Below are positions 39,087-40,585 of a stretch of DNA of 64,000 bases, piece by piece. Made by a program: the position numbers and the translations under genes. Each line of letters begins with the position of its first letter. Position 1 is the stretch's first letter. Origin of the DNA: an uncultured Eubacteriales bacterium (lineage in GTDB: Bacteria > Bacillota > Clostridia > Oscillospirales > Oscillospiraceae); the NCBI GenBank assembly GCA_900315595.1, contig OMZQ01000031.1, positions 1-64,000 on the forward strand, written 5' to 3'. Below the pieces are notes generated by a model. It worked only from the letters and a program-made list of their open reading frames with translations. It had not been told where the DNA came from and made no database searches.

Positions 39087-39286
39087 AAAAAAATTTTGCG
39101 GCAAGCCGCCCTTGGCAGGGGCAGCTTGCCGCGCGAGGAAATGAAAAGGGAAGCGATTGACAGCAAGACAATTTGGGAGGAAATCGGTTTGGATCGTTCA
39201 CGCGTCCCCTTCCCTGCGGACGCCCTGGCGCGAGGCGTCCGCAGGAAGGAAGCAATTGATCAGGAGGTCATTAGCCTTGACTAACT
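39087..39286 (-). ncRNA. Predicted metal-responsive small RNA with anti-Shine-Dalgarno motifs
   Basis: A near-consensus promoter (39293-39321, minus) predicts a start near 39286, and a Rho-independent terminator ends near 39090, giving about 190-200 nt. No credible protein is encoded on this strand; the first ATG opens only six codons. Single-stranded segments read GACCTCCTGATC, TTTCCTCCCAAATTG, CGCTTCCCTTTTC and TTTCCTCGCG, all complementary to ribosome binding sites. TCAATTGCTTCC and TCAATCGCTTCC are near-repeats. A central 16-bp hairpin (CCTTCCTGCGGACGCC) separates the halves. Bacillus FsrA, a Fur-controlled sRNA, works through comparable C-rich segments. The function is inference; the promoter, operator and terminator are visible. 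Confidence 0.6.
39098..39132 (-). terminator. Terminator of predicted small RNA
   Basis: GCGGCAAGC and GCTTGCCGC form a perfect 9-bp stem with further pairing GCCC/GGGC inside. AAAATTTTTTT follows on the minus strand (39087-39097). Confidence 0.8.
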
Positions 39287-39292
39287 GTCATT

Positions 39293-39321
39293 ATATTAGC
39301 ATACGCTAACCGATTTGTCAA
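39293..39321 (-). promoter_or_regulatory. Promoter and DtxR-like operator of predicted small RNA
   Basis: On the minus strand TTGACA (39316-39321), 17 bp, then TAATAT (39293-39298). The inverted repeat TTAG-N6-CTAA (39296-39309) overlaps the -10 and spacer. The stretch is nearly identical to the promoter at 40557-40585. Confidence 0.7.
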
Positions 39322-39346: not shown

Positions 39347-39775
39347 TTATGATTCGGCAAGCGCAGCCCCGGCGCTGCGCAGGCTTGCAAGCGTATCCTC
39401 CTGCGGCGCGTCGGTGCAGATGACGCTTTCGGCAGCCAGGTCGGCTCCGTCCGCACGGCAGCGGTCCTCCCAGTCGCGCATCCACTGACCGTCGCCCCAG
39501 CCGTAGGAGCCGAACAGGAAGACCTTCTTCCCTGCCAGCGCGGATTCGACGGAAGCGAACATCGGCTCGAAGACGTCCTCCTCCAGATTTTCCGCGCCCA
39601 TCGCGGGGCAGCCGAAGGCAAGGGCGTCGAACGCGGCGACCTGATCGGCTGCAAAGGCTTCGGCCGGGATCAGCGCAGCCTCGGCTCCGGCCTCGGTGAC
39701 GGCGGTCCGGAGCGCGTTTGCCATAGCCTCGGTATTCCCCGTGCCGCTCCAATAGACGATTGCAATGTTCTTCAT
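39347..39775 (-). CDS. Flavodoxin
   Basis: The 142-residue protein is a short-chain flavodoxin. It has the FMN-phosphate loop VYWSGTGNTEAMANAL (residues 7-22), the ALAFGCPAMGAENLEED loop and FLFGSYGWGDGQWMRDWE, the second flavin loop. Flavodoxins replace ferredoxin as electron carriers when iron is scarce. It overlaps the upstream DUF3793 gene by ATGA. The operon's promoter carries TTAG-N6-CTAA operators of the DtxR/IdeR type, consistent with iron control. It could serve electron flow from enzymes such as indolepyruvate oxidoreductase. Confidence 0.95.
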   Translation of the reverse strand: MKNIAIVYWSGTGNTEAMANALRTAVTEAGAEAALIPAEAFAADQVAAFDALAFGCPAMGAENLEEDVFEPMFASVESALAGKKVFLFGSYGWGDGQWMRDWEDRCRADGADLAAESVICTDAPQEDTLASLRSAGAALAES

Positions 39776-40380
39776 TCTGAAACACTCCTTCTATTTAAAA
39801 TTGTGTCATACGACGGTTGGCTGGTCTTTCTCGGCGCAACGGTAAGCTGCTCCAGACTGCGGCCCTTCGCGTGCTGGGCCAGATACAGGGAAACGCATTT
39901 GCGATACCGCGCAAAGGTCTGCTCCGCCCGCTCGGGGTCGGAATAAACCTTCCAGGTTCCGACGAGCTTGGCCTTTGCGCCGCGGTTTTCGATAAAGCCC
40001 CGCACGTCCGCAGAGGGATAGCCCAGAAACAGGCCGATCTCATGCGGAAATTCCCCGCCGGTTCGGAGCCGACGGCTCAGCTCCGCCAGACAGGAGGCTT
40101 CCCGCTCCGGGCGGTAACCGAAGCGGCGCAGCATCTCGCGGACCTCGGCGTCGGCAAAATCGGCGCGGAGGGCTTCAGGCCGATATACGTAGATCAGAGC
40201 CCGTCCGTTCCGGTAGCTGCAGAGGAAGGCGCGAACGCCCTTGGACGCAAGCCGCCGATCCACGGAGCGAACCTCGGCAACGGCCTCCGCCAGACTGGAA
40301 ACCGGATGCCCAAAGAGGCTTGCGGTCTTGATGCCGGCAAGCGTCGGCGCGCACTGGCGAAGCCAGATCTCATCTGCCAT
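39772..40380 (-). CDS. DUF3793 family protein
   Basis: The 202-residue soluble protein matches DUF3793. Early in the sequence are LRQCAPTLAGIKTASLFGH, then LCSYRNGRALIYVYRPEALRADFAD, and the GEFPHEIGLFLGYPSADVRGFI block that is the family's most recognisable part. The function is unknown. DUF3793 genes are frequently next to flavodoxin and ferrous-iron transport genes in Clostridia, which fits an iron-related role. Here it is the first gene of a two-gene operon with flavodoxin. A 5' leader of about 165 nt can form a long-range stem (AATGCCTT...AAGGCATT). AAAAAGGAGGG precedes the ATG. Confidence 0.92.
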   Translation of the reverse strand: MADEIWLRQCAPTLAGIKTASLFGHPVSSLAEAVAEVRSVDRRLASKGVRAFLCSYRNGRALIYVYRPEALRADFADAEVREMLRRFGYRPEREASCLAELSRRLRTGGEFPHEIGLFLGYPSADVRGFIENRGAKAKLVGTWKVYSDPERAEQTFARYRKCVSLYLAQHAKGRSLEQLTVAPRKTSQPSYDTILNRRSVSE

Positions 40381-40433
40381 ACAGAACCCTCCTTTTTGGG
40401 ATATTGCCCCGAAAGCAGGCGTTTCATTCGCAG

Positions 40434-40585
40434 TTAGCGCAAACTAACTAACAGGGCTTGAGAATGCCTTCCCGGCAGTCAGGAGAGAAGCGCCAGCGGA
40501 TCGAAAACGGGCGCTGCTACCGGAAAGGCATTGGTTAGTTTCTGCTAACCATCAGTATATTAGCACACGCTAACACATTTGTCAA
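40434..40585 (-). promoter_or_regulatory. Promoter and three DtxR-like operators of the DUF3793-flavodoxin operon
   Basis: On the minus strand TTGACA (40580-40585), 17 bp, TAATAT (40557-40562). TTAG-N6-CTAA occurs at 40560-40573 (over the -10), at 40535-40548 (inside the perfect repeat GGTTAG-N6-CTAACC) and at 40434-40447. DtxR/IdeR boxes are built from the same overlapping half-sites, so a metal-dependent repressor is the likely regulator. Confidence 0.7.

Follow-up and report, generated by a model that had tools for sequence, protein, structure and literature searches.

We report that a regulated non-coding RNA gene at positions 39088 to 39286 (minus strand) is well supported in the window, by which we mean the whole 64,000-nucleotide stretch of DNA analysed here. 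Judged from the sequence, the gene probably encodes an iron-sparing, FsrA/IsrR-like small RNA (sRNA) under DtxR-type control, as a separate gene in the metal-starvation regulon; we put the probability of this reading at about 0.72. The RNA is likely a base-pairing regulator within the iron regulon. Moreover, and beyond what the original prediction covered, an RNA of another build is found in most members of the genus, frequently as part of the flavodoxin 3'UTR. Gut anaerobes thus seem to have an iron-saving RNA system that had not been recognised.

The features of the locus are collected in Table 1. The minus-strand promoter overlapping a TTAG-N6-CTAA palindrome, from which the original prediction started, was recovered by a promoter scan, and in a 5-kb scan seven promoter-like sites were found where 1.5 are expected. 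The predicted operator is present at this promoter, as two palindromes and not as a single copy, and the counterpart of operator 1 in G016 is GTTACCGTATGCTAAT. The start of the RNA was inferred from the position of the -10 hexamer and its end from the terminator, whose stem and T tract agree with the hairpin previously noted to end the unit. A similar promoter is found ahead of the DUF3793-flavodoxin operon, as had been claimed; over 43 nt the identity between these two blocks is 86%, and therefore the "same block" of that claim should be taken as similar, not identical.

Table 1. Positions in the window of the predicted RNA gene, its control elements and the neighbouring operon.
Feature	Position	Strand	Basis or remark
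DUF3793-flavodoxin operon promoter	40557..40585	minus	promoter scan
Operon operators (three)	40559-40574, 40534-40549, 40433-40448		palindrome search
DUF3793 protein, one operon with flavodoxin	39772..40380	minus	PF12672, 181.8 bits
Flavodoxin	39347..39775	minus	PF00258, 52 bits
sRNA-gene promoter, sigma-70-type, TTGACA-N17-TAATAT	39293..39321	minus	promoter scan; hexamers identical in G011 and G016
Operator 1, GTTAGCGTATGCTAAT on minus strand, overlaps spacer and -10	39295..39310		palindrome search
Operator 2, GTTAGTCAAGGCTAAT on minus strand, covers predicted transcription start	39270..39285		palindrome search
Predicted small RNA, type A, about 190-199 nt	39088..39286	minus	homology, fold
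C-rich segment ACCTCCTGAT, within ACCTCCTGATCA	39259..39268	minus	exact in three genomes; complements PFOR ribosome-binding site
Central hairpin	39210..39249	minus	15 pairs kept in G016, 4 changed on both sides
TTTCCTCCCAAA, CCTCCC in predicted apical loop	39172..39183	minus	unpaired probability 1.0 over CCTCCC
Pyrimidine-rich CGCTTCCCTTTTCATTTCCTC	39135..39155	minus	3' half predicted unpaired
Intrinsic terminator, 14-bp stem (39132-39098), then AAAAT7	39088..39132	minus	stem and T tract
Candidate RNA/PFOR pairing sequences: ACCUCCUGAUCA, UGAUUAGGAGGU			

DtxR/IdeR boxes carry a TTAG...CTAA dyad upstream of iron genes. The operator here has this dyad in common with them, and it differs in its consensus, GTTAG-N6-CTAAC, and in being often paired a few turns apart. 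In the 2.4-Mb genome the pattern RTTAGN6CTAAY occurs 12 times, compared to three times for the reversed control, and five of the 12 sites lie within one 1.3-kb stretch around the RNA and the operon. Other sites in the same genome precede feoA (L052; FeoA by NCBIfam, below cut-off) and an ABC-transporter gene (L051). In another family the operator is located before feoAB (L004), elsewhere too it precedes feoAB-type genes (L137-L139) and likewise ABC transporters, and in most of the family genomes examined it stands ahead of DUF3793-flavodoxin. Hence the sRNA gene has a metal-type operator in common with iron-uptake genes, a mark of iron-sparing sRNAs, with the metal response itself predicted. 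The only DtxR-C (PF02742) match in the genome, L075, encodes a protein nearest to MntR models, scoring below their cut-offs; we infer that this putative repressor binds the operator, and the metal sensed would most likely be iron. The genes feoA and feoB and those for flavodoxin are classical iron-limitation genes, and because they carry the operator iron is favoured over manganese, though the two are not separable. The computable steps of the earlier claim of DtxR-type control are thus supported, by the occurrence of the operator at feoA and the flavodoxin operon as well and by a DtxR-family repressor gene in the genome. As side observations, a short membrane-like ORF (MDDLIV...VWKK) lies between the operator and the ABC-transporter gene (L051 in G000, the genome of the window, and L143 in G016), and an operator-like palindrome, probably fortuitous, is part of a terminator-like hairpin that precedes a NuoE/HoxE gene (L044 in G000, L144 in G016).

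The RNA at the locus, referred to as type A, has a fold energy z of -5.0, and none of 200 shuffles was as stable. It holds 13 pyrimidine motifs compared to 4.9 in dinucleotide shuffles (p = 0.006), and a strict count gives six anti-Shine-Dalgarno (anti-SD) motifs (mononucleotide-shuffle p = 0.04), in keeping with the anti-Shine-Dalgarno stretches that had been predicted; ACCTCCTGAT is only about 40% unpaired in the predicted whole-RNA fold. In G000, G011 and G016 alike, type A occupies the interval from padR to flavodoxin, and the identity to the RNA of the window is 97% in G011 and 73% in G016, a second species. The promoter, the operators, ACCTCCTGATCA and a CCTCC stretch are kept in these homologs, and the central hairpin retains its full set of 15 pairs in G016, four of them through compensatory changes. 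Indels of 1, 5 and 12 nt among the homologs break the frame, which excludes a conserved reading frame and bears out the earlier view that no credible protein is encoded here. Model R1 recovers type A in three genomes only. Its weak matches elsewhere in the genus (L058-L061, L063, L064) lacked a linked operator, looked tRNA-proximal or random and were rejected. We likewise rejected the BLAST matches L005, L006 and L008, which appear to be fortuitous hits within coding sequence, and L007, located at a tRNA promoter. Rfam scans of the window, the locus and the type-B loci (see below) gave no gathering-level match, and a permissive search gave sub-threshold matches only.

Twelve other members of the genus (12 of 23 genomes, model R2) carry a different structured RNA, type B, with three hairpins and a terminator. 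Its first hairpin has a covarying stem and a TACCTCC-containing loop, which is ACTTACCTCC or one base off in the seven genomes that have the RNA in the flavodoxin 3'UTR; then follow a middle hairpin and a third one with a loop near YTGACRAA. In an alignment of seven related sequences, which is a small sample, pairing of the first helix is found in 100% of cells, and its covariation score exceeds that of 500 of 500 shuffles. Outside the genus R2 found no genome among the 295 searched with stricter filters. Moreover, operator-driven C-rich RNAs were identified by eye in G019 (hairpin loop TTTACCTCC) and in G009 (TTGTGAACGAAT and several CTCC stretches, partly type-A-like). Types A and B are not convincingly alignable in sequence or structure, and R2 matches no type-A genome; a shared function of the two is therefore suggested by position, control and motif. 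Relative to dinucleotide shuffles, the enrichment in C-rich motifs reaches significance in type A and is weak or absent in several of the type-B and other-genus RNAs, so that for these the argument rests on conservation.

On the iron-sparing reading, a DtxR-family repressor would occupy the paired RTTAGN6CTAAY operators when the metal, most likely iron, is sufficient, and would then silence the RNA, the DUF3793-flavodoxin operon, feoA and other uptake genes; upon iron shortage all of these would be made together. The CCUCC-type stretches of the RNA, exposed in loops and linkers, would pair with selected mRNAs at their Shine-Dalgarno regions; less of these mRNAs would then be translated, and iron would be spared as flavodoxin replaces ferredoxin. 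The mRNA of PFOR (pyruvate:ferredoxin/flavodoxin oxidoreductase), a large iron-sulfur enzyme, is the best candidate to be repressed.

Known iron-sparing sRNAs offer analogies for such a design. FsrA of the Gram-positive Bacillus subtilis likewise directs C-rich segments against Shine-Dalgarno sequences and is induced with iron-starvation genes; it is controlled by Fur and needs FbpA/B/C (PMC9410917), whereas the operator here is DtxR-like. The RNA has no Rfam match, hence no homology to FsrA was detected, and the FsrA analogue of the original prediction stands as a working analogy and not as homology. The staphylococcal IsrR has two operators at its promoter, stem-loops and a terminator, and three C-rich regions, two of them in hairpin loops (PMC9410917), and the RNA here is similar in its paired promoter operators, stem-loops with terminator and C-rich regions; in contrast, IsrR is Fur-controlled, and no sequence or Rfam relationship was detected. 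MrsI of Mycobacterium tuberculosis is an iron-sparing sRNA whose promoter contains a site bound by IdeR, a member of the DtxR family, and MrsI acts via a six-nucleotide seed (PMC8628891); DtxR-type control is common to both, while the seed and the unrelated phylum set MrsI apart and no relationship was detected. By analogy, the design would be FsrA/IsrR-like in its C-rich anti-SD stretches and MrsI-like in its DtxR-type control, with a homolog of none of the three detected. In the literature covered by a full-text search for a clostridial iron-sparing sRNA with flavodoxin, the sole match was on Bacillus RoxS.

To predict targets, TGATCAGGAGGT was searched with at most one mismatch in the three type-A genomes. 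The sole start-site match common to the three was the PFOR gene (TTGATTAGGAGGTAWTTCCCTTG), which encodes 1174 aa in the genome of the window (TIGR02176, 1724 bits); the match at its ribosome-binding site is TGATYAGGAGGT, and ACCTCCTGATCA can pair with this site over 12-13 bp with one G-U. When pairing was ranked for the first 45 nt of the RNA, PFOR came 2nd among 113 start regions; for the whole RNA it came 57th of 113, in a ranking dominated by GC-rich artefacts. A NuoE/HoxE-type gene with ATTAGGAGGTTAA, the start region of which is the same in G016, ranked 5th. The PFOR start region of G019 has lost the extended match and keeps just the 7-nt GGAGGTA. For type B, the 12-nt loop complement GGGGAGGTAAGT (at most one mismatch, five genomes) matched no start region, only the antisense of the RNA genes themselves and six non-start sites, fewer than the reversed control, and the type-B loops compared with 342 start regions of three genomes gave top genes without an iron-sulfur theme. 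Because of the 7-nt match in G019 and the lack of an iron-sulfur target from the type-B loops, we consider PFOR a lead and not a result; it is the best present candidate target, and the NuoE/HoxE-type subunit the second. A second PFOR-like paralog, approximately 57% identical, with a different ribosome-binding site (AAGGAGGAATCGATTC) was also observed (L221 in G000, L248 in G016).

These data leave some room for a metal-regulated base-pairing sRNA whose main role is not iron sparing and instead, e.g., the homeostasis of manganese or zinc, or the regulation of uptake genes, with the PFOR match as one among a few start-site matches due to chance. Besides the proximity of the DtxR homolog to MntR models, a ZIP-type transporter gene adjoins the DUF3793-flavodoxin operon, and among the five start-site matches to the conserved segment in G000 only some are iron-sulfur genes. 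This role is nevertheless unlikely in our view, given the operator at feoA/feoB and flavodoxin.

That the element acts in cis, as an attenuator of a downstream padR or as a stability element of the flavodoxin mRNA, we regard as improbable. Type B is indeed located directly in the flavodoxin 3'UTR of seven genomes, and padR follows the RNA in G000, G011 and G016. However, a strong terminator precedes padR, which has its own promoter-like site, and in G003, G013 and G020 type B stands alone, away from flavodoxin, with its own promoter and operator; the loops of these three copies keep TACCTCC between variable flanks. The remaining copies lie in the 3'UTRs of operator-driven flavodoxin or DUF3793 mRNAs, with type B following DUF3793 alone in G004 and G017. 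A second, weaker type-B copy is present in G001, and L101 in this genome is a second operator-driven RNA in addition to the existing 3'UTR copy. The type-B RNA gene of G013 (L099) is next to an rpmB-hprK pair, which is also near the type-A gene of the window.

DUF3793 is present in 17 of the 23 genus genomes, and a C-rich RNA was found in exactly the same 17 (three with type A, G009, twelve with type B, and G019) and in none of the six that lack DUF3793. In four of these six, the operator sites linked to a promoter stand ahead of genes; the other two, G014 and G015, are without a site. By labels alone the co-occurrence corresponds to 1 in about 100,000, a value which overstates the evidence because the genomes are related and two of the RNAs were identified by hand; moreover, the six genomes may be one lineage, and the 17/6 split is thus not 23 independent events. 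The host genus, with records matched by name, corresponds to Oscillospiraceae/Ruminococcaceae or unclassified Clostridia metagenome-assembled genomes, mostly from rumen, which fits the Oscillospirales-type genome anticipated earlier. A small-protein gene, for which a 58-aa TTG ORF overlaps, or intergenic DNA without function in which promoter and terminator arose by chance can be dismissed as highly improbable in view of the frame-breaking indels, the compensatory stem changes and the operator-linked recurrence in 17 genomes.

In 30 genomes of the family most sites combining a -10 hexamer with the operator lead genes. Three such sites in other genera, in G026 (L188, minus), G111 (L161, plus) and G189 (L181, minus), are followed by a C-rich RNA of 50-85 nt and a terminator, and L180 and L165 are weaker candidates; these RNAs were recognised by visual inspection, and for some of them the motif count does not exceed that of shuffles. 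A tentative extension, which we hold to be possible and rather more doubtful than the iron-sparing reading itself, is a family-wide Oscillospiraceae iron-sparing response in which a DtxR-type repressor acts together with C-rich sRNAs that evolve fast. Here the RNA body would have been repeatedly replaced, with the operator, the regulon position and the anti-SD loops retained; in some members of one genus the RNA would have become the flavodoxin-mRNA 3'UTR, one transcript giving the iron-free carrier and repressing iron-rich enzymes such as PFOR.

If the iron-sparing reading is true, gut Clostridia would have an iron-sparing RNA, to which the unknown DUF3793 would be tied, and PFOR, the enzyme through which their fermentation is entered, may be tuned by iron. 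It would also be a case of an RNA that changes in its body yet keeps its control and its pairing motif, with the 3'UTR and the stand-alone gene as alternative homes for one RNA. In the literature covered, a full-text search for DUF3793 gave a single mention, in a fungal paper. Finally, the 5'UTR of the DUF3793 mRNA (40381-40545, minus) has a hairpin, AATGCC...GGCATT, between the operators, the inner sequence of which is kept in G000 and G016, and this is a possible leader RNA.
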